Made by a program: the position numbers and the translations under genes
Source of the DNA: Sthenelais limicola
Taxonomy: Eukaryota > Annelida > Polychaeta > Phyllodocida > Sigalionidae
Direction: 5' to 3'
Length of the DNA: 64,000 nucleotides
Assembly (NCBI GenBank): GCA_942159475.1
Contig: OW804096.1
Span: forward strand, 129,942,941 to 130,006,940
Shown here: positions 17,074-62,300 of the stretch, piece after piece
Layout: every line of letters starts with the position of its first letter
Position numbering within the stretch: the stretch's first letter is position 1
The notes under the pieces: generated by a model
Told to the model about the DNA's origin: nothing
The model's database searches: none
The model's input: only the letters and a program-made list of their open reading frames with translations

Positions 17074-19311
17074 ATGTCGAAACAGGGGTCATCAGTGGCG
17101 GACTTGGTGAAGGAAATACAGGAGAACAATGCTCGAATTACACAAAGTGCAAAGAACTTTGCTGAAACAACAGAACGAATCGGCAAAGTGGAGAGGGAGA
17201 AGGTGTCCATAATCAAAGATGGAATAAAAAGTCTTGCTAAATTAATGGAGAAGAGATTGGCAAGAATGAAGGCGTCCGCAAGACCTAGTGTGGGGGTTCA
17301 TGTGAATAGGGAGGTAAAGACGGAAAGAGAGAGTACAGAAGATTCATCTCCGGACTCTTCTGTCCAGGGACCACCGAGTTACGCTAACTTGAGCGCGGAG
17401 AGTACAGCAGTGGGAGGTGCTAGGCCCAAGAGAAACAATCCATTCGCAGCAGATTTTTGTGATGACCCTAGTGTGCCATTAATACCTGAAGTAACGTGGG
17501 ACGCTGGTAAGCCGCCATATTACACAGAGCCATTAGTGCCACTCCCTTATAATCCAGACTTTGACTACTTAAGCCCGCAAGGGGCCAAAGAGGAGCTGCT
17601 CAGGCAAAGCGTGGATATTGTCAGCAAAGAGTTGCAGAGAACTCAAGCCGCTCTTAAGGCAGCGGAGGAAGATACCCTGAGGACAGTCCAGGATATGAGA
17701 AATGATTGGGAACGAACGAATGAAAAAATGTTAAAAGATGCCGAAGATAGGCACGAAGCTAGGATAAACGTACTAAAACTAGCATGGGAGGAGGGCGCGC
17801 GACGAAGGGTGAAAACTGCAGAAGACGGAAATAGGGATATAATTGTAACGCTGCAGAATGACTGGAAAAATGCACAACAGAAAATGGAAAAAACAGAACA
17901 ACAGAGAAACGAATATATGACGAATGAAAAAGAAAACCATAACAAGGAGTTGGAGGAGCTGAAAAGGGAGCTGGAGGAGGAAAGACGGGCCAGAGCTAGA
18001 GCCAATAGGAAGGAAGAAAGCGATCGGGAGGAGTGGGAGAGGGCAGAAATAGCAAGACACGAAATGGAGGAGGTGAGAGAGGCCAGAAATAGAGAGTGGT
18101 GTGAGGAAATGGAAAAGGAAAACCAAATAAGGGAAGCAAGGGCAAACTGGCTAGCAGAAGAAATGGATAAGCTGAAAATAGAACATGAAAAGGAGAGTGC
18201 CCTATTTAGAGATGCGTCTGTGCGTTACAAACAGGACAGGAAAAACCTTACAGACATGGTCAGAAATCTCACGAACGCTGGAGGGGTAGAGCAGCCTAAA
18301 AATAGCGTACTGCGGACACCCCAGAGAGCAAACCAGCAAGCAACGAAAATAGGTGTTAGTAGCACAATTTGCTCAGAAGATTCCGGGGATATAACCGAGA
18401 TGTATAGGCTACCTAATGTGCTCCCAGCGTTTACCCCTGCACAAACAGGAAGATGGTCAGATAAGTCTAACGAAGGGGGAGGGGCGGCAATGAGACACTT
18501 CATTAGGGGGCCTGAAAATTTTCGGCATTCAACGGCAACCAGAAATGTGTCTGAATTCCTGACAGAGTATGAGGACTATGCAAGTGCCTTGGGCATACCT
18601 GAGATGTACTGGCTGCAGGGGCTGGGTGGTAGATTGGAGGGATCAGCTAAAGCATATTACCAACAAGTCGCATCAGTTGCAGCCAGAAAACGGGGTACAC
18701 TGTCGTACTCAGATATCAAAAGTAAATTCTTGACCAAGTTTCAGGAAATGCCGTATAGTGAGGTGAAGGATGACTATTCCCGGCGACGACAGGAGACAGG
18801 TGAGAGTGTGGAGACATATGCAGACGCCATGCTGGTATTGCTGGCAAGGACATCACTGCACGAGGATGAGAAACTGAAGGCGTTTATAGCAGGTTTAAAG
18901 GATGGATTAGCAGAGAGAGTCCTGACAGAGGCTCCTCGCACTTGTGAAGAGGCTAGAAGAGCGGCCAGAAAACATGAGTTGTCGGACGAGCAAAATGAAA
19001 AAGCACTGAGACTTCACCTAGTGGGATCTACTCAATCAATGATAGCTTCTCTGGCAATGAAGGGTTATGACGTTACTCCCAGTGATGTCAGATCAAACCC
19101 CGGTCCTGCTAGAAGCCTACCAGCAGAGGAGAAAGGAGAATGGACTCCTAGAAGAGGTGAGGAAGAGAGACGCCAGGAAAGAGAATGGACTCCTAGAAGA
19201 GGTGAGGGAGAGAGACGCCAGGAGAGAGATAAGAATAAGAGATTAAGCATTCAGTCACCAAAAACAACTGGGGTGGTGAAAAACGGAGTGTATCGGCAGA
19301 ATTTTCAGTAG
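17074..19311 (+). CDS. gag: Gag polyprotein, 745 aa
   Basis: This is the structural Gag of the LTR element, expected to assemble cytoplasmic capsids around the genomic RNA. The ATG at 17074 is the first one after the LTR and leader. Residues about 1-60 are helical. Residues about 165-390 form a long charged coiled coil rich in E, K and R. Residues about 473-640 match the Ty3/Arc-type capsid region (F-x-x-Y aromatics, GSAKAYYQQV, SDIKSKFLTKF, RRRQETGESVETYADAM, FIAGLKDGL, TCEEARRAARKHE). No CCHC zinc knuckle is visible. The basic tail instead carries two tandem 15-residue repeats starting EWTPRRGE, presumably for RNA binding. Pol begins two bases after the stop in the -1 frame. Confidence 0.9.
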   Translation: MSKQGSSVADLVKEIQENNARITQSAKNFAETTERIGKVEREKVSIIKDGIKSLAKLMEKRLARMKASARPSVGVHVNREVKTERESTEDSSPDSSVQGPPSYANLSAESTAVGGARPKRNNPFAADFCDDPSVPLIPEVTWDAGKPPYYTEPLVPLPYNPDFDYLSPQGAKEELLRQSVDIVSKELQRTQAALKAAEEDTLRTVQDMRNDWERTNEKMLKDAEDRHEARINVLKLAWEEGARRRVKTAEDGNRDIIVTLQNDWKNAQQKMEKTEQQRNEYMTNEKENHNKELEELKRELEEERRARARANRKEESDREEWERAEIARHEMEEVREARNREWCEEMEKENQIREARANWLAEEMDKLKIEHEKESALFRDASVRYKQDRKNLTDMVRNLTNAGGVEQPKNSVLRTPQRANQQATKIGVSSTICSEDSGDITEMYRLPNVLPAFTPAQTGRWSDKSNEGGGAAMRHFIRGPENFRHSTATRNVSEFLTEYEDYASALGIPEMYWLQGLGGRLEGSAKAYYQQVASVAARKRGTLSYSDIKSKFLTKFQEMPYSEVKDDYSRRRQETGESVETYADAMLVLLARTSLHEDEKLKAFIAGLKDGLAERVLTEAPRTCEEARRAARKHELSDEQNEKALRLHLVGSTQSMIASLAMKGYDVTPSDVRSNPGPARSLPAEEKGEWTPRRGEEERRQEREWTPRRGEGERRQERDKNKRLSIQSPKTTGVVKNGVYRQNFQ
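19138..19227 (+). repeat. 45-bp tandem duplication in the gag tail
   Basis: Positions 19138-19182 and 19183-19227 are near-identical direct repeats encoding two basic 15-residue units (EWTPRRGE...RRQER). They sit where a nucleocapsid zinc knuckle would be expected. Confidence 0.9.
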
Positions 19312-19313
19312 AT

Positions 19314-22300
19314 ATGCCGGTTGGAATGTTGCCAGCCATACCGGCAGAAAGGGAGGATCAATCTGAGGAAGATGGAGAGGATGAAAGCGGAAGTTCAGTT
19401 TCAATAGATGACAGTAACATAAGTATGAGTCAAGAGAAAGGAACTCAGGAGGTGCAGGAGATGGCCTTTCGAGAAAAGGAGGTGAAAAAAGCAATGAGAA
19501 AGAGGTGGAACCAGAAGAGGAGAAGATGGAAATTACAGGAGAAGAAGAAAGAGCAACGTAAAAATGAGAGAGCGGTGCAGGAATTGAAACTTCAGAAGAA
19601 AAAGGACAATGGGTTGATGTCCTTAAGTAAACATAAAGAGGTGACACAAAACAGTATAATTAATAGTAAGGAGGGCGATGATCGTTCCTCACGCCTGGTG
19701 TTACAGGACAGTGACGCGGGGAAAGTGACAGTCCAACTGGAAAACTGCAGAACAATTTGCACAGTTGGCTCAGCAAAAATTAGCTGCCTGGTGGACACGG
19801 GAGCTAGTATCAGTTGTATTTCGACTGATACGTTAAACCAAGTAGTGCAGGAAAAAGGGGCGCTGCTCCGCCGTGTACAGACATATCTGGTTATTTACAC
19901 AGCCGATGGGGGGCGCCACAAGTCGAATGAAAGGGTGTTGTTGTCTATTAACATTGGAAAAGTTCGCACTAACGCATGGTTTTATGTTGTGAAGGGTTTA
20001 TCCCTTCAGTGTATCATAGGAGTCGATTTCTTGAAAGCAAGAAAGGCCAAGATTGACTTCCAAATCCAAGACCCTGACCATTACACCGTTAGAATAACTA
20101 AGCCTAAATTAATACCTCCGAAATCAGAATTTACTTGCATGGCAGTGGTTTCGGCGCATCAAAATTTAAATCATGCAGTAGGAGTAGTTGACAATTTGAA
20201 AAGATGTGTGCAGGTCCCATTTGCGGTCAAGAGAGCCCTCGTGAGGCCACAGCGGGGGGGAAACAATATACCGGTTACCGTATTTAACGCTGCTAACACG
20301 CCAATAAAATTGGGAAAGGGTTCGGTTTTGGCAGCATTTTCAGTGGTCAATGAAGATGATTATGTAAAAGCTGGGGTTCCCGGTCAGTCTGAGCGACCGA
20401 TCGAGGAGGTAGGTAGCACAAAATGCAGTGAGACTAGGGTTGATTACACCCTAGGCGAGAATCTGTCGGCGGAGCAGAAACTAAGTATGGCGAGTTTGCT
20501 ACAGCGTTACCGCGCGGTCTTCGCCACAAAAGATTCGCCGATATCGACAACTGACATTTTTGCACATAAAATAGAGTTGAAAGAGGATTACGTGGCCCCT
20601 ATTCGAAGTCCATACCGTACAAACCCTCATATGACAAGGGTACTGGAAACAATGCTGGAAGAGCAGATGCGTTTGGGCATTATTGAACGAACGAATGGCG
20701 AGTCTGAATTTGCTGCGCCATGCTTTCTAGTGGAGAAAGGGAAAGCAGCTGCAAGACAGGACAAAAAATATAGAATTGTCATAGATTACAGAAAAATTAA
20801 TAAATGTATAAAGAACGAATGTAGGGTCTTCCCTTCAGCAGACGAGACGTTGGAAAACGTCGGGGGACTAGGGGGAAGATTTTTCTCAAAATTGGATTGC
20901 CATTCAGGATTTTTTCAAGTGCCTCTAAGGCCAGAAGACAAGCCCAAAACTAGTTTTGTCACACCCAGAGGGGTGTTCCAGTACAAGGTCATGCCTATGG
21001 GGCTCAAAACTTCGCCAAAAGCGTTTCATTCGGTGATTGAGAGCGTTTTAAAATATGTGCCAAATGCACTGCCCTACATGGATGATGTAATTATAGCATC
21101 ACAAACATGGGAGGAGCATCTGCAGCACGTGGAAGAGGTATTGCAAGCATTCCAAGTGGCGAAGCTTAAGTTCAGGGCGGAGAAATGTGCGTTTGGGTAT
21201 GAAATAATGCAATTTCTAGGGTTTGTAGTAACGAAAGATGGGTTGCAGCCGGACCCAGAGAAGGTTCGTATAATTCGTTCATATCCAATACCAAAAACTG
21301 TCAGGGAAATGAGGGCCTTTAACGGTCTGGCAAATTACTATAGGACATTCATTCCAGGGTTTGCAGATAAAATGGTCCCCTTGTACCAGCTGACGAAGAA
21401 GCTTGGTAGAAGAGAGCGTTTTCAGTGGAATACAGAGGCAGATAGAGCGTTTAAGGCAGTAAAGCGGTCAATGTGCGAAGATGTCGTTCTAAGATACCCT
21501 GATTATTCTAAAGGGTTCACTATCTGGTGTGATGCTTCTCGAATTGGGATTGGCATCGTGTTGACACAGCTCCATGATAATTGCTTCCATAGGCCGGTTG
21601 CGTTTGCAGGAAGAAGCCTGTCTTCCGCTGAACAAAATTTCTCGGCGACAGAAAAAGAATTGGTGGCGGTCCGGTATGGCTTGGAAAAGTTTAAGCATTA
21701 CGTTCTGGGCAGTCACTTTGAGGTATACACTGATCATGCGGCATTATTAGCCTTAAACGCTAAACAGGATCTTACAGGAAGGATGGCTCGTTGGATCGAC
21801 TGGTTCAGTAATTTTGATTTCACCTTGCGGCACATCAAAGGAAAATGCAACATCACAGCCGATATTTTATCAAGAATGCCATATTTTGGGGATGGCATTA
21901 CAGCAAAAGAAGAGCAGGGACCGCAGCAGAGGCAGGTAAGATTCAAGGCGGTGAATCACATCCGATTCTTTGATAAAGAGGAGGTACTGGGAGCATCGCC
22001 CATCAGAAAGTATAGGAGACCGTCAATCTTAAAAAATGGACGTCTCAGAAATAAGAGGCGAGATGAGAAGGATGACACGCCAATTATCCAGGTAAGTGCA
22101 CCAGAACCAGAGCAAGACACAGCACCTATCGAGGATGATAGTAGGGACTTCCCAAGAGTCGATGGCACAGTGGTGACACGCCTGGGCACGCCAGGGGAGC
22201 AAATAATGATGGTTACTAGAAAAAACCCGCGTGTAACGGAAAGGATGGCGCTATATATCGAGGAAAGAGACAAGGCAAGGAAATTAGGGGAGGAAGACTC

Positions 22301-24035
22301 AGAAGAGGGGGATAGTCAGTCTGATACTGGCAACCATGACACACCAGCACGAGAGGAGGAGACAGAGGCTGAGGAAGAGACACCAGAGGGGACAGACCTA
22401 ATCCACAGAGGAGTGTCAAGACGGAGGAAGACTTTGGGAGTCCCGTCATTGGTTGGTAAGTATCAAAGAGAGAAAAGACGAAAGGGAGTAAGGGCTAGAG
22501 AAGTGCAAATCACCGATACGGCGTTCTATGAAAGGCTCATCACTGAGTATGGGACTTTAGGTACGAGAGAGGTGTTCGAGAAGGAGCAAATAACTGACGA
22601 GTTTTGCAGCGATATGACAAATTACATTGAGAGGGAAAAGCTCCCGAAGGATAACACGAGAGCAAGGGGAGTTTTGCTGCAACACGACTGTTTCTTGCTA
22701 TCAGGCGGCATCCTGTACAGGGTACCACCAAGGACGAGAAAGGCACAGATAGAAGAGAGAGCGCAATTAGTGGTCCCACAATCTATGGTAGAAAAATTAT
22801 TGAATCAAATACATGACGTCGGTTTGGGCGCACATATGGGTATAAAAAAAATGCTTAGCATTGCTTCACCGCGGTACTACTGGCCATCAATGGCTAGAGA
22901 CATAGGTGAGTATATTGGGTCTTGTCAGAAATGTCTGGAGGTGAAACCAAATCCTAATCCTATCAAGGTACCTATGACCGTTAAGGAGCTGTCACAGGTA
23001 CCATGGGACGCTATCGAGATTGATACCATAGGTCCACTGCCTGAATCGAGCAGAGGCTATAAATATGTGCACACGGTCTGTGATGTAGCCACAAGGTTCT
23101 GTGTAGCTTGGCCAACAAAAGACATAAAATCTGAAACCTTAATACCTGAATTCTTTGAGCACGTAGTGTCTGTCTTGGGCGTGCCATGCACTCTTTTCAG
23201 CGATAACGGTTCTTCATTTACTAGCAAATTGTTCAGAAATTTCTGCACAGTAATGGGGATTAGGCAGGTCCTGGGATCTAGCTACTATCCTCAGAGTCAG
23301 GGTCAAATCGAGAGATTTAATCGTAGCCTGAAGACGGCCCTGAGAGCATACGTAAATAAAGATCAGAAAAATTGGTGTCAATTTGTGGCCCCGATTGTAT
23401 TTGCGATGAATGCGTCGGATTCAAGCGCGACAAACTACCCAGCATACCTGCTAATGTATGGAAGATTCCCACGACTTCCTCACGAAAATGTTTTAAAGGA
23501 ATACGAGGGAGAAATGAGGCCCCTTCTGGAGCAGCTAGGCAAGATCGTCGAAAAACAAGAGATCTATGGGGACCTAGCTCGGGAAGCATTACTGACGTCA
23601 CAGGCGAAAATGAAGGAATATTATGATAGGCAGGCGAATGCACACAGGTTGAGGTCAGGATCGTTGGTATATATGAAGGTGAATCGCCTACTACAACCTG
23701 GAACTGCATATAAGTTGCAGAAGAATTTCTGTGGCCCCTTTGTCATCTGTGCAAGACCCACAGGGTGCACAGCCAGACTAAGGAGGATGGATACTGGAGC
23801 AACACTGCCTAAACCAGTGCATGTATCTCATTTGAAACCGGTCAGTGTGTCCAAAACCAGTCACTTTATGGAAAGACTGCTCTCACCAGATTTACTACCT
23901 TTGCACGAGTATGAAGAGAAGGGCCCGCTGGATGAGAAGGGATGGCAGGACATTGCCTGCACAGAAGAAATAGGCTGCAATTGGCCTGAAGAGGAGGGAG
24001 AGAAGGATAAGAATGAGATAGGGGATACACAGTAG
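19314..24035 (+). CDS. pol: Pol polyprotein (PR-RT-RNaseH-IN), 1573 aa
   Basis: This encodes the replication enzymes of the element. An acidic/basic N-terminal stretch leads to an aspartic protease with DTGAS at 161-165. The reverse transcriptase lies at about 390-700, with YMDD at 588-591. RNase H follows, with D740 and D807 (TDHA). Integrase has an H1167-H1174-C1204-C1207 zinc finger, a D1237-D1297-E1333 triad (D,D35E) and a GPF motif in the C-terminal part. A linker of about 250 residues between RNase H and integrase, rich in E, R and K, is unusual. The frame is -1 relative to gag and is open from 19239, overlapping gag by about 70 bases. I see no canonical slippery heptamer in the overlap. 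The ATG is two bases after the gag TAG, so termination-reinitiation is an alternative to frameshifting. The order PR-RT-RH-IN defines Ty3/Gypsy. Confidence 0.95.
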   Translation: MPVGMLPAIPAEREDQSEEDGEDESGSSVSIDDSNISMSQEKGTQEVQEMAFREKEVKKAMRKRWNQKRRRWKLQEKKKEQRKNERAVQELKLQKKKDNGLMSLSKHKEVTQNSIINSKEGDDRSSRLVLQDSDAGKVTVQLENCRTICTVGSAKISCLVDTGASISCISTDTLNQVVQEKGALLRRVQTYLVIYTADGGRHKSNERVLLSINIGKVRTNAWFYVVKGLSLQCIIGVDFLKARKAKIDFQIQDPDHYTVRITKPKLIPPKSEFTCMAVVSAHQNLNHAVGVVDNLKRCVQVPFAVKRALVRPQRGGNNIPVTVFNAANTPIKLGKGSVLAAFSVVNEDDYVKAGVPGQSERPIEEVGSTKCSETRVDYTLGENLSAEQKLSMASLLQRYRAVFATKDSPISTTDIFAHKIELKEDYVAPIRSPYRTNPHMTRVLETMLEEQMRLGIIERTNGESEFAAPCFLVEKGKAAARQDKKYRIVIDYRKINKCIKNECRVFPSADETLENVGGLGGRFFSKLDCHSGFFQVPLRPEDKPKTSFVTPRGVFQYKVMPMGLKTSPKAFHSVIESVLKYVPNALPYMDDVIIASQTWEEHLQHVEEVLQAFQVAKLKFRAEKCAFGYEIMQFLGFVVTKDGLQPDPEKVRIIRSYPIPKTVREMRAFNGLANYYRTFIPGFADKMVPLYQLTKKLGRRERFQWNTEADRAFKAVKRSMCEDVVLRYPDYSKGFTIWCDASRIGIGIVLTQLHDNCFHRPVAFAGRSLSSAEQNFSATEKELVAVRYGLEKFKHYVLGSHFEVYTDHAALLALNAKQDLTGRMARWIDWFSNFDFTLRHIKGKCNITADILSRMPYFGDGITAKEEQGPQQRQVRFKAVNHIRFFDKEEVLGASPIRKYRRPSILKNGRLRNKRRDEKDDTPIIQVSAPEPEQDTAPIEDDSRDFPRVDGTVVTRLGTPGEQIMMVTRKNPRVTERMALYIEERDKARKLGEEDSEEGDSQSDTGNHDTPAREEETEAEEETPEGTDLIHRGVSRRRKTLGVPSLVGKYQREKRRKGVRAREVQITDTAFYERLITEYGTLGTREVFEKEQITDEFCSDMTNYIEREKLPKDNTRARGVLLQHDCFLLSGGILYRVPPRTRKAQIEERAQLVVPQSMVEKLLNQIHDVGLGAHMGIKKMLSIASPRYYWPSMARDIGEYIGSCQKCLEVKPNPNPIKVPMTVKELSQVPWDAIEIDTIGPLPESSRGYKYVHTVCDVATRFCVAWPTKDIKSETLIPEFFEHVVSVLGVPCTLFSDNGSSFTSKLFRNFCTVMGIRQVLGSSYYPQSQGQIERFNRSLKTALRAYVNKDQKNWCQFVAPIVFAMNASDSSATNYPAYLLMYGRFPRLPHENVLKEYEGEMRPLLEQLGKIVEKQEIYGDLAREALLTSQAKMKEYYDRQANAHRLRSGSLVYMKVNRLLQPGTAYKLQKNFCGPFVICARPTGCTARLRRMDTGATLPKPVHVSHLKPVSVSKTSHFMERLLSPDLLPLHEYEEKGPLDEKGWQDIACTEEIGCNWPEEEGEKDKNEIGDTQ

Positions 24036-53577: not shown

Positions 53578-53595
53578 TTTTTTTTTTTTTTTTTT
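53578..53595 (-). other. LINE poly(A) tail
   Basis: Eighteen T on the + strand form the 3' poly(A) of the - strand LINE. An AATAAA-type hexamer on the - strand overlaps its start (53593-53598). Confidence 0.85.
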
Positions 53596-53966
53596 ATTAC
53601 AAAATGGCCAAACAGTTACATTCATTTTCATTTACAAAAAATACGCGTGTCCACCCGGTGGATGTTTTCCTGCGTTGCCTACAACCTTTATCGTTTACAT
53701 CTGTAATTTAAACATTGTTATAATATTATACGTTATCCACTATAGTTACGTTTATACAATCATTCCTATATATTTACCTCAATACAAGTGACAAACATTC
53801 TTACTCGTTCTTCTCAATATATTCATTTTCGTATCATGCCGTTATATATATATGCAACAAGACTGATCCAGGCTTTAACTCTATGCTGTTAGTAATTAAT
53901 CGCCTAGCCCTTATGAGGGCTGTATCTAAAAATATGGGATTGATTAAAAACTGCTATTCGCAGCAT
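53596..53966 (-). other. LINE 3' UTR
   Basis: About 370 bases separate the ORF2 stop from the poly(A). There is no ORF. A CATCCACCGGGTGGAC-type short inverted repeat is near 53650-53666 and could fold into a stem recognised by the RT, which is an inference. Confidence 0.6.
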
Positions 53967-56813
53967 CTAGACAATATTTTCTTCAAATCTCAACCAATAC
54001 AGGTCCTTCAGTTTTTCACCAAAACCCCTTGCGTCCTCACAATTCCGAATTTGTTCCGGTAAATTATTCCAAATACCAATACCTCTATAGAAGCTACTCT
54101 TCTTCATCCTTTCAGACCTAGGTAAAAAGGTTTTAAATAAAATTCCTCTTTTCCCTCGCAGTTCTTTCACTCTTGGTCCAAGGTCAATATATTTTCTTTT
54201 CTTCCTATACAGGGTTTTTATGAGAGCGATTTCTCTACGATAATTTAGAGGTAGTATTTTCCCCTTTTTTTGTAGCTCTTTTTTTGACATATCCCATCCA
54301 AATGATAGTCTCAGGGCTCTAAAGATTGTTTTTTGTAACTTGTCCTGTATTCCCAGTCTACTATTCATTATTATAGGGCTTGCATATTCAGCCAAAGGTA
54401 GTACATACGTCTTACATAGTAGCCAGCAGATATCACTATTTAAAAATTTTCTTCGTTTACTTATTCCTGCTAAAGTCCACTTTGCCCTTGCGACCATATT
54501 ACTTGCCTGAATATTCATACTCAACTTATCGTCGATTGTTACCCCTAAATATTTGAATGTATGGACGCGCTCTATGGTCTCATTATCACATCTCAGAGTA
54601 ATATTCTCATCATTCCTACTTTTGCTGAAAATCTGATATTTGGTCTTTTTTCTATTAAGAACCAACCCATTACGCTCGCACCATTTACTATATGTATTTA
54701 TCGCAAACTGTGCTTTTGTGGTCAATTCTTCGATACCCTTCGCCATTACTGTAATTACAGCGTCATCAGCGAATAAAATTAGCTTACCACCGAAATCAAT
54801 CTGACCCAGATCATTGCAAAAGATTAAAAACATTAGGGGCCCAAGAATACTTCCTTGGGGTACCCCGTTTGGTACATACTGATTCGATGAACATAACTTT
54901 TTTTGTTTTAAAAACTGTTGTCTGTCGCTAAGGAAATCCTTCAACAGCCCACACAAATTTGGTCCCATTCCCATCGAGTTTAGCTTTTTCAGGAATAAGG
55001 CATGTGATACCGTATTGAATGCCTTCCGGATATCAAAATATATGGAGAGACATTTGTTATTCGTATCTAAATTCTCAAAGATTCCTTCCAAGTTTTCGTG
55101 GATAGCCCCTAGTGTCGAGCAATTTTTCCTAAACCCGTATTGGGCTTCAGTAAAAAAGTTTGATTCTTCTAAATAATTATACAGGCGATCATATACCAAT
55201 CTTTCGATTATCTTGCTCATGGTTGGTACTATAGTGATAGCTCTAACATTATCTAGATTTCTTACATCTCCTTGCTTCGGCAACAATTTTATCGCTGACA
55301 CTTTCCATTGTGATGGAATTTTTCTGTTCAATATACAGCTATTTAACAACTCAGTAAAATACTTAGGATTGTTTCTTAACGCTATACATAGCATGGTATT
55401 ATCGATATCTGCAATTCCAGAACTCTTGTGTACCTTTATCTTTGCTATTTCTTGGGTCACTTCATTCACAGTGAGGTCATTGATAATATCAAATACTACC
55501 GGTACATTATTAGCATTATCCCCAATTGTCACAATATTCTCGTTTCCCAATTGGGCGAAATATCTATTAGCATACTCAAGTGCTGGTAAGTCTGTTATCA
55601 GAGACCCATCACAATAGAATTCGTTCAAGTCTTCATTACTTACATCCTTGTTACCATATATTTTATTGATGTTTTTCCAAAATCCTCTCGGATTATGTTT
55701 ATCTCTCTCAACTGCTGCTATTAAACATTCTCTCTTTTTCTTACGGATAAGCTTTGTTACACTGACCCGCAACTTTTTGGCTTCAATAACCTGATCTTTA
55801 TTATTGTTGCGCTTAGCTTTGCTGAAAGTCTCGTCCCTTTGTTTGATCATATCTTTCACCTCTTGGTCTATATAGGTTTGGGTTTTATATTTAATACGCA
55901 CCCTTATTCTCTTTGAGGATTGTTCAATACATTCTCTTATATCAGAGACGAAGCCATTCCAGCTACTATTTATATCTCTATTCACATTGATATCATACTC
56001 ATTTACTCTCTGACACAAATTTGTTTTAAATTCTCTATGTGTCCTTTCTCTACCTGTCTGGACCCATTTGTATTCACGGTCTTTCAGACTTATTTTTGTC
56101 TTAACGTTTATCACACAGCTAACAGGAAAGTGATCGGATATATGTACTTTATGTATGGTTCCCTGTGATAAGGTCATATTGCTACATATAACATCAAGCA
56201 TCGTTGCTGAATTCAATGTCACTCGTGTACACCCCTTCACCGCTAGACCCAGGTTATATCTTTGCATTAGATCGTTCCATTTTGCAGCCTGGTTATTCGT
56301 ACAACTCAGGTCGATATTAATATCTCCCAGTAACATTATACGTCTCTTACGTCTATTCAAGGTACCTAAAATGTTAGTCAGACATTCCATAAATCTGTCA
56401 ATGGATCCGGAGGGCCGGCGGTAGACATTCACCAGTGCAAAGTTCCCCCAATTACCTATCTTCAAAGAGAGCACCTGAACCTCAATATCTATATTACAAG
56501 TATTCATACCTTCAATTCCCTTGTTGCTAACAGATATTCCATTCTTGATGTACACAGCCAGGCCTCCACCCTTTTCGGAAGTATTATTTATAATTCTATC
56601 TTGCCGGTATATGGTATATCCTTCGTGAGACACATACGAATTTCTGACGTGTTCGCTTAACCACGTTTCACATAGTGCTATAACGTGATACCCTTTACTC
56701 ATAAGACATTCCTGCACCTGTTCAAAATTAGAAACAAGGCTCCTACAGTTATAGGTTACGATTGATTGGCCCATTCGATTGGGGTTTTGATTACATTCAA
56801 ATCTATCAGCCAT
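53967..56813 (-). CDS. LINE ORF2: endonuclease-reverse transcriptase, 948 aa
   Basis: This protein nicks the target and copies the element RNA (target-primed reverse transcription). The N-terminal endonuclease/exonuclease/phosphatase-type domain (about 14-240) has NCRS near residue 23, catalytic E49 (CETW), D164 (LLGDINID) and S-D227-H228. The reverse transcriptase (about 430-740) carries IKLLPKQGD, QYGFRKNCST, FDIRKAFNTVSH, GVPQGSILGPLMF and F681-A-D683-D684. The C-terminal part ends with the GIGIWNNLPEQIRN pattern common in CR1/L2-like elements, and there is no RNase H. The ATG at 56813 is the first in the frame and lies 389 bases downstream of the ORF1 stop, so translation must reinitiate or use an internal route. 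The frame has no stop or frameshift. Confidence 0.95.
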   Translation of the reverse strand: MADRFECNQNPNRMGQSIVTYNCRSLVSNFEQVQECLMSKGYHVIALCETWLSEHVRNSYVSHEGYTIYRQDRIINNTSEKGGGLAVYIKNGISVSNKGIEGMNTCNIDIEVQVLSLKIGNWGNFALVNVYRRPSGSIDRFMECLTNILGTLNRRKRRIMLLGDINIDLSCTNNQAAKWNDLMQRYNLGLAVKGCTRVTLNSATMLDVICSNMTLSQGTIHKVHISDHFPVSCVINVKTKISLKDREYKWVQTGRERTHREFKTNLCQRVNEYDINVNRDINSSWNGFVSDIRECIEQSSKRIRVRIKYKTQTYIDQEVKDMIKQRDETFSKAKRNNNKDQVIEAKKLRVSVTKLIRKKKRECLIAAVERDKHNPRGFWKNINKIYGNKDVSNEDLNEFYCDGSLITDLPALEYANRYFAQLGNENIVTIGDNANNVPVVFDIINDLTVNEVTQEIAKIKVHKSSGIADIDNTMLCIALRNNPKYFTELLNSCILNRKIPSQWKVSAIKLLPKQGDVRNLDNVRAITIVPTMSKIIERLVYDRLYNYLEESNFFTEAQYGFRKNCSTLGAIHENLEGIFENLDTNNKCLSIYFDIRKAFNTVSHALFLKKLNSMGMGPNLCGLLKDFLSDRQQFLKQKKLCSSNQYVPNGVPQGSILGPLMFLIFCNDLGQIDFGGKLILFADDAVITVMAKGIEELTTKAQFAINTYSKWCERNGLVLNRKKTKYQIFSKSRNDENITLRCDNETIERVHTFKYLGVTIDDKLSMNIQASNMVARAKWTLAGISKRRKFLNSDICWLLCKTYVLPLAEYASPIIMNSRLGIQDKLQKTIFRALRLSFGWDMSKKELQKKGKILPLNYRREIALIKTLYRKKRKYIDLGPRVKELRGKRGILFKTFLPRSERMKKSSFYRGIGIWNNLPEQIRNCEDARGFGEKLKDLYWLRFEENIV

Positions 56814-57202
56814 CGCCTTTTCGTTCTAGGTCTACACTCCCTACTCTGATCACATTCGGTATACAATTGTTATAAAAGGCGATTGTAACATCTATCCATA
56901 GGCTCTTGGCCATACCCTATACAATTGATAGAGCAATATACACACTCAATATACACAACAATCTTACACAGTCTCTGTTTATAGTGTAGAGCGCGGACGT
57001 CACTTTGTCCTACATATTGACCTTACAGCTGTTTTACCTAGTGTTTACATAACCAATTTAATGCAAGGGCAAATACAGTATATGTTTCAATCGCTATCAG
57101 AACACAATCAGTGACATGAAAATTGAAATAATTCCTTTATACACATTACTACCAATTGATATATCATACGTTTACGACTCATTAATGATATTGAGAGAGT
57201 GA
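56814..57202 (-). other. LINE inter-ORF spacer
   Basis: These 389 bases between ORF1 and ORF2 hold no ORF. The spacer is longer than in many LINEs and raises the question of how ORF2 is translated. Confidence 0.7.
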
Positions 57203-59059
57203 CTATTTGACTTTTTTCAGTAGATCAAGTTTGGACCCACGACTGGCATTTTGACTCATTCGCTGGTACGATGTGTTTAACAGACTTTCAGAGTTCGGAT
57301 GCGGGGTAGAAATCATTCCTCGTGTTATCCTTGTTCTGAATTCTCGTGCTTCAGTCTTGTGATCATCTAATTGTTCTGGCTGCGTGTCTACAACCTCCAA
57401 AGAGTCATGATCAAGGTAATCCATCATATGTAGAACTCTACTATCTCTGTCATCTTTTTCATGGTCGCTCGGTGGAGGGTCATCATGGACGAGATTGCTG
57501 GCTATAGATACATCTTGGGTTAGAGCAATGGCTTGGTCTTCCTTATTTTCCTCCATGATTTCATTGCCCTCCTTCCCTGGTGTCTTTCTTACTAATCCGG
57601 AACCTGTTCCTAGTGGTACAGCTCGTCTCGTATCTCTCTTTGGTGTTTTGTTGTATTTAAAGACCAAATGATCCCTGTGCTTACGGATAGGTGAAATTGG
57701 TTCGTCAAGAGGGAATTTCGCCCTCATACTTTCCCTAACCTCCATCAGTATCTTTCCTAGTTGGTTTCCACCCTCCCACGAGTGGTCGTCGAGCCTATAG
57801 TTGCCAAGGTAACACCCAGCGCCATATTTCATATTTGGTGTGGCCTCTATTAGCTCGCATCTGCCGAGCCCCACTAATTTTCTCCTTAGCTCTTTATTCT
57901 GCTCGAACTTCGCCATTATGATCTTTTTCATCTCCGTGTCTGCCATCGCTTCCCAGTTGGGATTCGTGGGGATTGCCTCTCCGTATCGCTTGCACATCCT
58001 AGGGTCTCTCGAATTAGTTATCTTTGTTCTAATCCGGTCTTTTTGAAGGATCTCCGCTTTTTTGGCAAAAAAGGCTTGCTCTGACGACGTATACTCAAAC
58101 TCCTCATATATGAATTTAACACCATAGAAGTTCGAGAGGAATGCCCTCTCCCCCTGGAAGGCATAGCCTCCATCCACGGGCACTATTTTCGTTGTCTCGG
58201 GTAGCACTTCTTCTGGGATAGTCTCAAGAAGACTGTTATCATAAATTTTCCCATTCAGTATTAGTTGGTCACCCTTGGCCCTTGTTTCCTCTTCTTTATA
58301 GCCAAGCGCTATCGCCCTCTTTGCGATCTGGTGAGCCAGACTGCGCTTCTGTTGTACTCTCTGTGGTAGGACGTTATTCAACTTCACGAATTTGAGATAA
58401 TTGTACCTTTGGCCCTTAAACTTAGTTCTGTCCTTCAGTACTTTTTGGCCACGGATAAGATCTTCTTTGATGCCTATGTTCGTTAGTTTAACCATCATCT
58501 TCGGTGGTATTTTCCCTTTTTGGTATCCTTGTCGGTATGCTTTCTGTACAAGGTCATGGGTGAAGTGGGGAATTAACAATTGGCAAAGACTTACTACTTT
58601 ATCGATAGGGCTTTCACCCTTATAGAATTCCAGTCCTTCAATCTCTAAGTAGTTCTCCTTTGCCATTGTCTCACATCCGTCGATCTGTTTTTTCAAACAA
58701 TGGATATCTTGGTTCGTATATTCACCCTCTCGTTTCACATCAAATAGAACATCTTCCAATTCTCTTCTCTTTGAAATTTCTCCATCTAAGTCCATGATTA
58801 GATCATTGACAAAATTCGAGTTTACCTCAATCGAACTTTTTAGTTCAGTTTTGTCGTCGCTCAGTCTTTTCTCTACCGATTCTTGAAACTCTTTTTGTTT
58901 CGTCATTAATGTAGCCATCTGCGCACGTAATGTATCCATTTCGGCAGAAACGTCTGGGTTGTATATTGAAGACACTTCCTCAGTATCGCTTTGTGGCGAT
59001 TGTGATGCAACTTGAGCTTGCCTTCTCCTTTTTCTACGCTGGCCACGACCAGCCCCCAT
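57203..59059 (-). CDS. LINE ORF1: coiled coil-RRM-CTD protein fused to a NADAR domain, 618 aa
   Basis: ORF1 proteins of this type bind the element RNA and chaperone nucleic acids. A basic start (RGQRRKRRRQ) is followed by a coiled coil (about 38-130) and an RRM-like region (about 136-225, beginning NYLEIEGLEF). A CTD-like part (about 226-285, with LPQRVQQKRSLAHQIAKRA) follows. This is the type II, Transposase_22-like layout. Residues about 296-450 then match the NADAR (YbiA/DUF1768) family in order: LSNFY 308-312, SSEQAF 325-330, AKF 383-385, LIEAT 403-407, YGAG 412-415 and GGNQLGKILMEVR 430-442. Canonical members have W before the G-x-G; here it is Y. A charged tail (451-618) follows. NADAR proteins act on ADP-ribose-linked substrates, including removal of ADP-ribose from guanine in DNA/RNA, so an anti-ADP-ribosylation role is inferred. 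The frame is intact. Confidence 0.88.
   Translation of the reverse strand: MGAGRGQRRKRRRQAQVASQSPQSDTEEVSSIYNPDVSAEMDTLRAQMATLMTKQKEFQESVEKRLSDDKTELKSSIEVNSNFVNDLIMDLDGEISKRRELEDVLFDVKREGEYTNQDIHCLKKQIDGCETMAKENYLEIEGLEFYKGESPIDKVVSLCQLLIPHFTHDLVQKAYRQGYQKGKIPPKMMVKLTNIGIKEDLIRGQKVLKDRTKFKGQRYNYLKFVKLNNVLPQRVQQKRSLAHQIAKRAIALGYKEEETRAKGDQLILNGKIYDNSLLETIPEEVLPETTKIVPVDGGYAFQGERAFLSNFYGVKFIYEEFEYTSSEQAFFAKKAEILQKDRIRTKITNSRDPRMCKRYGEAIPTNPNWEAMADTEMKKIIMAKFEQNKELRRKLVGLGRCELIEATPNMKYGAGCYLGNYRLDDHSWEGGNQLGKILMEVRESMRAKFPLDEPISPIRKHRDHLVFKYNKTPKRDTRRAVPLGTGSGLVRKTPGKEGNEIMEENKEDQAIALTQDVSIASNLVHDDPPPSDHEKDDRDSRVLHMMDYLDHDSLEVVDTQPEQLDDHKTEAREFRTRITRGMISTPHPNSESLLNTSYQRMSQNASRGSKLDLLKKVK
57710..58174 (-). 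other. NADAR (YbiA/DUF1768-like) domain within LINE ORF1
   Basis: This segment encodes residues 296-450 of ORF1. The series FLSNFY, E327 in SSEQ, AKF, LIEAT, YGAG and GNQLGKILMEVR occurs in the order and spacing of the NADAR family. It lies in frame with, and downstream of, the RRM/CTD part, with no stop between them. Confidence 0.85.
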
Positions 59060-59325
59060 TGTTCAGTGTTTGTTTACCGTGGTTACTGGCGGCAAACTCA
59101 GGTAATGTGCCCCACTATCGCTCAACTCGCACTGGGTATAATAAAATTGTATTATATATCGGTTATCATCCCAAATCGACCAATATATCTTAAAAGTCCG
59201 TGTTCTATGTTCACAAACAGAGCTGTTTTGATGTAGATCGCTACTCAATGATGGGCTGCATTACGATAGATCGTCGATTTAAATTTCCTCGAACCGATCG
59301 GGCGTCTTACTATGCGGCCATCTTG
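59060..59325 (-). other. LINE 5' UTR with YY1-like motif at its end
   Basis: Between the ORF1 ATG and the presumed 5' end are about 266 bases. At 59314-59325 the - strand reads CAAGATGGCCGC, a YY1-type motif. The same kind of site lies at the start of mammalian LINE-1 and positions its transcription start. The boundary is inferred from this motif. Confidence 0.5.
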
Positions 59326-60559: not shown

Positions 60560-60671
60560 GTAGTGATGGGTACATCCCTGGACGCTTGTGATAAACTCTT
60601 CTGTCACCCTCCTCAGTCGGAATCTTTACCTCAGCCTCGTCATCTATCTCAACTCTGATGTCAGTGTCACC

Positions 60672-62300
60672 ATGCCGACGCCGACAGATTCTAGTGCCCA
60701 GCGCCCCCAGCTCCTGGAACCGGAACCATGGCAAGACTTCCGGTGCGCGGATCCAGTCCGTTCTTGCCTTGGCACAACTTCCTTTCTGCTGATCACTGTG
60801 ATCGTGATTGGCGATATCTTCACAGACATATGGATTACGGCCATATTTGGCTTGCGAGGTCACATGATTCTCGCTGGTGTTTGCCTTCTCGTGCTGGTCA
60901 CTAACAGTCTCATCTGTGCTTTCATGTATGCTGTGCTCTTCAAATATGAAGGGAGTGGCGGTAGTGGAGGAGGAAGCAGTGACCCTCCATTTTATTATGT
61001 ACCTGGCTGTTTACTTCTCAATGTGCCCTTTCAGTTGGGAATCATCGGTCATCGCTTCAAACATTTCGGTCAGAGATCCAAACATTGTTGCACTATTGCA
61101 GACCAAAGAAACAGCAAAGAATGGGCTTATGCCAAACTCAAACTTGCCCAGGGCATCTTTCAATCTGCCTCTATGTTGATAATCAACATCTATGCCACTC
61201 TGGTATATTGGAACAGTCACCAAGTAGAAACCATCCAGTATTTCTCTGCGGGATTCTCTTTCGCTTCACTCGTTTCTGGTGCAGTAAATCATGAAAAGGT
61301 GCGAAAGGAACGAGTGCGACATGCAATTGTTGGCGTAGCACAAATATCATGCATTGTGGTGTATAAAACATTAATGCTTGGAGCCAGAATTCTAGCTCTC
61401 GTAAATTTTTTGTACTTTTACCATGAACTTCTTGCTGCCATTTTATTACCACATTTTCTCGTAGTTTTCATCTTCTTCGCGTACGTTTACCGAGCTGTGT
61501 GGAAAGTACGATACTATAAAATATTTCTCCACACAATCTATTGTATCCTGGCATATTTTCCCATACATAATGACTATCGCCCTGAGGGAGAGATCCTCTT
61601 ATACTACACACTTTTCATCATTGAGAACATCCTTATGGTGTCTGTGCCCTACGCATTGAAAACCACACAAGAACGTCCCAAGATCCACCTTCCTGGTTCA
61701 CAATATTACTACGTCATCACTGTTGGTATACTAGTGGGGTCCGCAGTTGGACTCTGTTTCATGGCCATCTATTACTTTCTTTTGCATCGTTCCAAAGCTA
61801 AAATTCAGGAACAGCATTTGAATTGGTTGTCTCGCTTTTGCATCTGGTCCAATAAGGAGGAAGATGCTCCTGCTCGTCCAATGACTACACAATCGTCTCC
61901 AGATGGGAGCAGGTTCTTAGCATGTGAAGAGGAAAACGCCAATATGCACAACACGATGGATGAAAATATTGAACATGAGCATTTGCTGACAGTGACAAAT
62001 GAACTGGATGAATCAGGTCCTCAACCAAGCTATCGGTCAACTTTGAGCTGTCACCATGGTAACTCAACAAACACAAGCAGTAGGGTAAGGGATGGAAGAG
62101 AAATGGGCAGTTCAGATGATGGGGATTATAAAGGGGGTGGAACAGAGAATGGCACAGCCACCAGAGACGGGGGTGAGTATGGGGATGGCACCGACCATCA
62201 TCACACAGGCAGACCTAGTGTATTGTCAGGGGATGATGATATGAGGGATTACGATTCAGATCAGGATCAAGATACAAGACCCCTACATGTCATAGTGTGA
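60672..62300 (+). CDS. XK-related (XKR) membrane protein, 542 aa
   Basis: XK-related proteins are multipass membrane proteins, several of which scramble phospholipids during apoptosis. I chose the ATG at 60672 because it has a good Kozak context (GTCACCATGC); the frame extends upstream only into the 5' UTR. About ten hydrophobic segments are visible (about 33-58, 64-90, 108-127, 155-180, 188-204, 216-250, 252-275, 280-297, 305-328, 346-371). Family features include DIFTDIWIT near 48-56, the QSASMLIINIY segment near 164-174, LLYYTLFIIEN (309-319) and VGLCFMAIYYFLLH (359-372). The C-terminal tail of about 170 residues is acidic, with many D/E and S/T. Some XKRs are activated by caspase cleavage in this tail, but I see no unambiguous site. 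The coding region is in one exon, whereas vertebrate relatives usually have several coding exons. I cannot assign a specific paralogue. Confidence 0.85.
   Translation: MPTPTDSSAQRPQLLEPEPWQDFRCADPVRSCLGTTSFLLITVIVIGDIFTDIWITAIFGLRGHMILAGVCLLVLVTNSLICAFMYAVLFKYEGSGGSGGGSSDPPFYYVPGCLLLNVPFQLGIIGHRFKHFGQRSKHCCTIADQRNSKEWAYAKLKLAQGIFQSASMLIINIYATLVYWNSHQVETIQYFSAGFSFASLVSGAVNHEKVRKERVRHAIVGVAQISCIVVYKTLMLGARILALVNFLYFYHELLAAILLPHFLVVFIFFAYVYRAVWKVRYYKIFLHTIYCILAYFPIHNDYRPEGEILLYYTLFIIENILMVSVPYALKTTQERPKIHLPGSQYYYVITVGILVGSAVGLCFMAIYYFLLHRSKAKIQEQHLNWLSRFCIWSNKEEDAPARPMTTQSSPDGSRFLACEEENANMHNTMDENIEHEHLLTVTNELDESGPQPSYRSTLSCHHGNSTNTSSRVRDGREMGSSDDGDYKGGGTENGTATRDGGEYGDGTDHHHTGRPSVLSGDDDMRDYDSDQDQDTRPLHVIV

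Follow-up and report, generated by a model that had tools for sequence, protein, structure and literature searches.

The LINE retrotransposon found in the window (the whole 64,000-nucleotide stretch of Sthenelais limicola DNA that was analysed) codes for an ORF1 protein with a NADAR domain. The initial annotation had recognized it as a LINE ORF1 of this kind, and profile HMMs, the other copies in the genome, linkage to ORF2 and the signature of selection all bear this out. Comparative analysis established what the domain is, that it is linked to ORF2 and subject to purifying selection, that its three mapped catalytic positions are conserved, and that NADAR and the element share a history. As the best explanation of the fusion, we tentatively propose, with a confidence that falls short of an even chance, that the NADAR domain of ORF1p would bring a guanine-ADP-ribose (guanine-ADPr) hydrolase to element RNA or cDNA. 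The fusion of a LINE ORF1 with NADAR is not new in principle. The initial annotation had supposed that no ORF1 of this type was described, which proved wrong: PMC12477816 (2025, on Ectocarpus) mentions in passing NADAR in the ORF1 of several Crassostrea gigas Tx1 LINE families, taken from Repbase. Among the matches listed, this was the only report of a NADAR-bearing LINE ORF1 noticed. The features of the window element are as follows.

53578..59325, minus strand: complete LINE copy of 5748 bp, poly(A) included, delimited by comparison of copies
59060..59325, minus strand: 5′ UTR, starting with CAAGATGGCCG, which resembles a YY1 site
57203..59059, minus strand: ORF1, 618 aa, with a basic start, a coiled-coil-like stretch, an RRM/CTD-like region, NADAR and a tail
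58655..58939, minus strand: predicted coiled-coil-like stretch of ORF1, residues 41–135, suggested by profiles A3 and A7, which match coiled-coil proteins weakly
58184..58654, minus strand: putative RRM/CTD-like region of ORF1, residues 136–292, tentatively assigned with hhalign and the mixed profile A3
57722..58150, minus strand: NADAR domain of ORF1, residues 304–446, from PF08719, TIGR02464 and PDB entries 2b3w and 8bau
57206..57709, minus strand: C-terminal tail of ORF1, residues 451–618, faster-evolving, with a conserved end in related subfamilies
56814..57202, minus strand: inter-ORF spacer, 389 nt
53967..56813, minus strand: ORF2, 948 aa, endonuclease and reverse transcriptase, from Pfam
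53578..53595, minus strand: poly(A) tail of 18 A

The window ORF1 (P0001) runs on the minus strand from the ATG at 59059 to the TAG at 57203; the initial annotation had the coordinates right and gave no strand. An ORF2 with endonuclease (EN) and reverse transcriptase (RT), a poly(A) tail and dispersed copies together identify the element as a LINE. Five of six close copies (the window copy, L002, L004, L005, and L006) carry AAGATGGCCGCATAG at the 5′ end, preceded by C in four of them, and copy L003 is alignable only from 59270. A poly(A) run was present in eight of nine copies examined; every run of A in the 801 bases fetched on the 3′ side of L003 was shorter than eight. Copy L002 is 99.8% identical to the window copy over 3621 bp and codes for an identical ORF1 protein, indicating that the family has moved recently; judged from this comparison, the window element is a recently active LINE. 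Candidates for target-site duplications, judged by eye, were short or offset, and comparison of the insertion flanks of the copies by eye revealed no common target. The copy with the L005 and L064 flanks seems, also by eye, to be inserted in the reverse transcriptase of another LINE, with VPQ..LGPLLF and FADDT in the flanks. A YY1-site-like motif, AAGATGGC[CG]G, lies at the 5′ end of the element (59325–59309, minus strand), and 13 further loci have it ahead of ORF1; we take it to resemble the 5′ end of human L1.

The NADAR domain, for which the initial annotation gave residues 296–450, was placed at residues 304–446 by Pfam, NCBIfam and PDB matches. PF08719 matched P0001 with an E-value of 1.2e-26 and 94.3 bits (cut-off 35.1), covering profile positions 9–163 of 163; TIGR02464 scored 80.5 bits (cut-off 73.7), and the PDB sequences 2b3w (E. 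coli YbiA) and 8bau matched at 1.3e-9 and 9.4e-7, respectively. In alignment A1, all 17 copies matched PF08719 at E ≤ 0.001. The genome searched comprised 1.13 Gb, about 99.6% of it in nine sequences. When PF08719 was run against it, every one of the 150 scored matches (the best 150 of 5561 candidates) exceeded the cut-off. This result, together with the PF08719 score of P0001, led us to reject a chance motif match. An internal stop was absent in 148 of these matches; 112 lay in open frames of 480 aa or more, five in frames of 200 aa or less, the frame lengths having been transcribed by hand. A search with the whole ORF1, in which 71 of 5352 first-look candidates were scored, gave at least 73 matches with identities from 100% to 40%, some of which are pieces of one copy. 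Because the best candidates alone were scored, these copy counts are lower bounds, and intact copies are favoured in them. Of 60 ORF1/NADAR loci, 42 had a complete ORF of 480 aa or longer, corresponding to 39 distinct proteins (the other 18 loci were left out), and P0001 matched all 42 complete ORF1s by BLAST, down to 23% identity. As side observations, phrog_1017 of PHROGs, a phage family listed with unknown function, matches the ORF1 NADAR at 1e-32, and three NADAR matches in the genome (C1:94855254, C1:89380390, and C1:66983187) lie in open frames of 162 aa that differ from the ORF1 frames and may be stand-alone NADAR genes or another family.

The fusion also exists in another record. In P0005, a 270-aa ENA protein, the part preceding its own NADAR gave phmmer matches of 1.2e-6 to 2e-4 to the RRM/CTD-like halves of several of the ORF1s analysed here. 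For an assembly artefact, or a chimera in which a host NADAR gene was joined to a LINE, we found no supporting point. Many dispersed copies with the same order of parts in diverged families, in addition to P0005, make such an origin hardly credible, and it was rejected.

The N-terminal half of ORF1 was more difficult to classify. The initial annotation had described a normal basic–coiled coil–RRM–CTD architecture, and this part of its description is weakly supported, by a mixed profile of 13 N-terminal halves (A3) and not by the Transposase_22 HMM or narrower profiles. Profile A3 matched a designed coiled coil (5.4e-5) ahead of human L1 ORF1p (2yko, 1.7e-4), and narrower N-terminal profiles left L1 ORF1p unmatched or reached E 0.047. 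Transposase_22, the check proposed in the initial annotation, had no match in P0001 or in any of the 13 N-terminal halves. Alignment of the N-terminal halves of different families (A7 against A6) with hhalign gave a probability of 98.3 over 159 columns, with values of 27.6 to 99.0 for smaller groups, and phmmer with the N-terminal half of the window protein alone did not reach the L038/L035 group. The N-terminal half is therefore called type II-like here only as a weakly supported assignment. LINE type II ORF1s, as described in PMC4120745 (coiled coil–RRM–CTD; L1, CR1, L2, and R1 clades), share with the window element a probably similar N-terminal architecture followed by an EN–RT ORF2. Among the ORF1 types I–V as listed there, no NADAR type was noticed, in contrast to the window ORF1. 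A hydrolase domain in an ORF1 also occurs in ZfL2-1 (PMC3905857), where the domain was shown to be active; that domain is an SGNH esterase and binds lipids, whereas the window ORF1 has NADAR.

ORF2 (56813 to 53967) gave Pfam endonuclease matches within residues 19–231 and a reverse transcriptase match at residues 512–760, and it contains the motifs FADD (54762–54773) and WNNLP (54057–54071), the latter 29 residues before the end of the protein. An ORF2 match was found 379–809 bp downstream of at least 19 of 30 ORF1 loci, counting the best 48 of 25124 ORF2 candidates. The stretches downstream of nine other NADAR ORF1s, chosen by hand like the rows of alignments A1–A7, code for EN and RT in eight cases; L070 runs off the end and L071 is incomplete, and in the downstream stretch of L072, where the frames are broken, the EN part alone was matched. 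Pfam RVT_1 matched in all five ORF2s tried. A profile of nine ORF2s matched human L1 ORF2p at 2.6e-41 (EN and RT) and R2 at 7e-28, and these were the only LINE entries returned from PDB. The Tx1 clade is characterized by an L1-like ORF2 with a Cys-rich C-terminus; the window ORF2, with two Cys in its last 150 residues, lacks such a C-terminus. A short ORF2 (948 aa) that has WNNLP close to its terminus and is not Cys-rich there is, by motif and length, what we take to be typical of the CR1/L2/Jockey group. By these criteria, ORF2 suggests a possible affiliation with the CR1/L2/Jockey group and not with Tx1/L1.

The closest known systems are the oyster elements. Like the window element, the Crassostrea gigas families in PMC12477816 combine a LINE ORF1 with a YbiA-family NADAR. 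They are labelled Tx1 there, whereas the window ORF2 looks unlike L1/Tx1; compared by description only, the window element and the oyster NADAR LINEs may belong to the same set. The same paper describes NADAR in the Pol of Ectocarpus Gypsy elements, which is, as in the window element, a NADAR captured by a retroelement, and suggests a role of NADAR in processing RNA intermediates.

Catalytic positions were taken from section 12 of PMC11543638 and mapped via the HMMER alignment to 8bau, the NADAR of Phytophthora nicotianae (PnNADAR).

58079..58081, minus strand: E327, equivalent to PnNADAR E43 and E. coli C7 E88, in 39 of 39 distinct ORF1s
58058..58060, minus strand: K334, equivalent to PnNADAR K50 and C7 K95, K in 36 of 39 distinct ORF1s, R in the other 3
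57845..57847, minus strand: E405, equivalent to PnNADAR E125 and C7 D171, in 39 of 39
57824..57835, minus strand: N409 to Y412, which reads D..W in outside NADARs, a departure from the outside homologues

Members of the NADAR superfamily have E, K, and an acid at the positions of C7 E88, K95, and D171, as do E327, K334, and E405 of the window protein. The initial annotation had named the absence of the pocket residues from all copies as an argument against its reading; E327 and E405 are instead invariant and position 334 is K or R throughout. A glutamate at the E405 position, whose role is described in PMC11543638, marks the YbiA subfamily, and Glu, not Asp or His, occupies the position in every distinct ORF1. 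Another glutamate, E440 in LMEVRE, was considered as the catalytic residue and rejected (E in 18, D in 8, K in 7, S in 4, and M in 2 of 39 proteins), because section 12 of PMC11543638 places that residue at PnE125, which is E405 here. E. coli YbiA and PnNADAR belong to the same sequence family as the window NADAR and have E, K, and E at the catalytic positions. They differ from it in having no ORF1 fusion and in having D and W where the window protein has N409 and Y412, and R79 of PnNADAR is absent here.

Outside the catalytic positions, K357 (PnK75) and W369 (PnW89) are each present in all 39 ORF1s, and R at the PnR79 position is present in none, the window protein having E361. Position 412 (PnW133) is Y or F in 20 of 20 members of the window lineage, with W in 19 of 39 overall; position 409 (PnD130) is N in 15 of those 20, with D in 20 of 39 overall. 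Among the outside homologues in alignment A4 (60 of 72), D occupies position 409 in 58 and W occupies position 412 in 59. The window protein thus has E361, N409, and Y412 in place of the PnNADAR ligand contacts PnR79, PnD130, and PnW133, although a PnNADAR-like pocket is not a stated criterion of the NADAR family.

Since these ligand-contact residues differ, the main rival to our proposal is that the specificity of the NADAR half is altered, or that this half serves chiefly in binding; it would then hold RNA, a host protein or a ligand that is a nucleotide or resembles ADP-ribose, and would aid RNP assembly or localisation with little or no guanine-ADPr hydrolysis. We regard this as fairly unlikely. 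The loss of R at PnR79 in all 39 ORF1s and the replacement of W412 throughout the window lineage are in keeping with it, as is the nematode NADAR protein SNA-3, which works with an snRNP and is inactivated by mutations of key residues (PMC9303266; the authors note possible folding effects in the mutants), indicating that NADARs can serve in RNP biology. In contrast, the C7 catalytic positions E88, K95, and D171 are E, K/R, and E in all 39 ORF1s, and such residues are not obviously needed for pure binding.

The NADAR domain has been maintained by selection. Twelve pairs were picked by hand from several subfamilies, and in each of them pN of NADAR was lower than pS: L001 and L008 gave pN 0.14 against pS 0.90, and between L001 and L005 there was no nonsynonymous change against eight synonymous ones. 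The four pairs with unsaturated dS gave dN/dS values of 0.00, 0.10, 0.05, and 0.14, this last value resting on three changes. We conclude from these comparisons that the domain has been retained because it serves a function. In 11 of the 12 pairs, pN was lower in NADAR than in the C-terminal tail, and ten lineage members shared a mean identity of 0.57 in NADAR, 0.59 in the RRM/CTD-like region and 0.38 in the tail. Despite its faster evolution, the tail ends in a motif, ISTP...SY..M..N...SKLD (ORF1 residues about 590–618), that is common to diverged subfamilies. That NADAR is a functionless passenger, captured once and being lost, has little to commend it beyond the possibility of accessory sequence in LINEs and the many matches that are partial over ORF1 or contain stops. 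The consistent excess of pS over pN, which led us to reject a decaying passenger, the fixation of E327 and E405 across ORF1s as distant as 23% identity to P0001 and the near absence of internal stops (in a scoring that favours good scorers) render it very improbable.

The domain was probably captured once by the ORF1 lineage. In a tree of 15 of the 39 ORF1 NADARs and 72 homologues, the ORF1 NADARs formed one split together with P0005 and P0007, with a moderate support of 0.848. The 72 homologous proteins were obtained with the 17-row alignment A1 as the query; homologue searches with the whole ORF1 and with the NADAR part alone returned nothing, and neither viral contigs searched with alignment A2 nor genome contigs searched with P0005 gave relatives. 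Among 10 elements, NADAR distances correlated with ORF2 distances (Spearman 0.56, reached by 30 of 2000 permutations) and with RRM/CTD distances (Spearman 0.87, calculated without permutation). These correlations between distances show that NADAR shares its history with the rest of the element.

In the guanine-ADPr hydrolase proposal, an RNP-forming half (basic start, coiled-coil-like stretch and RRM/CTD-like region) would be joined to a YbiA-type NADAR hydrolase fold. ORF1p would coat the element RNA and, during target-primed reverse transcription, the nascent cDNA, and the attached NADAR would take ADP-ribose off guanine in the coated RNA or cDNA. ADP-ribosylation by host or other ADP-ribosyltransferases would then no longer block translation, reverse transcription and second-strand synthesis. 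The NADARs tested in PMC11833690 and PMC11125620, including E. coli YbiA, hydrolyse guanine-ADPr on RNA/DNA, which makes ADP-ribose removal from the element RNA or cDNA plausible by analogy; with an enzyme core kept intact by selection, the element may be equipped with its own means of cleaning its RNA or DNA copies. According to PMC11833690, no hydrolase family other than NADARs was found to reverse ADPr of the guanosine base on RNA, and removal of ADP-ribose from guanine in DNA by NADARs is described in PMC11543638 and PMC11125620. Macromolecular ADP-ribose has been proposed as the target for the NADARs of eukaryotic RNA viruses (PMC9503650), and a guanine-N2 ADP-ribosylating activity was reported in six edible clams (PMC11209040). 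We counted against the proposal the significantly higher activity of C7 NADAR than of E. coli YbiA on RNA (PMC11833690), the departures at positions 412, 409, and PnR79, the G that P0005 has at the K334 position and the weak RRM/CTD assignment.

Alternatively, NADAR may act on small molecules, such as NAD-derived immune signals, ADP-ribose derivatives or RNA-processing by-products, instead of the nucleic acid of the element. Such substrates have been proposed for phage NADARs, and except in RNA-virus polyproteins the viral NADARs usually occur by themselves (PMC9503650); in addition, YbiA has N-glycosidase activity on riboflavin intermediates (PMC9303266), and TIGR02464 matches the window protein. 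We nevertheless consider this alternative unlikely. The fusion to an RNP-type protein suggests a local substrate, and the SNA-3 mutant positions in PMC9303266 map to E, W, D, and W; the D and a W correspond to N409 and Y412 in the window protein.

A wider reading of the hydrolase proposal, that a large, diverse and active LINE lineage carries a working RNP-bound guanine-ADPr eraser in an arms race with host guanine ADP-ribosyltransferases of the CARP-1/pierisin type, strikes us as doubtful. If it were true, nucleic-acid ADP-ribosylation would be an anti-transposon defence and NADAR a transposon-borne counter-defence, and the amplification and diversification of the lineage would reflect an arms race with enzymes marking retroelement RNA or cDNA. 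The roles of NADARs in eukaryotes, animals included, are called unclear in PMC11125620, and PMC9303266 assigns an animal NADAR a role in nematode trans-splicing. A NADAR domain under selection in an RNP-type protein of an abundant LINE group offers a testable setting for animal RNA/DNA ADP-ribosylation and suggests that retroelements may face and counter this modification.

The window contains two further coding regions. An LTR-type retroelement at 17074–24035 on the plus strand has two open frames, a 745-aa gag-like ORF, for which Pfam gave no match, and a 1573-aa protease–RT–RNase H–integrase ORF. An XK-related gene (PF09815, 9.9e-31) occupies a single open frame at 60588–62300 on the plus strand, about 1.3 kb from the 5′ end of the LINE and on the opposite strand.
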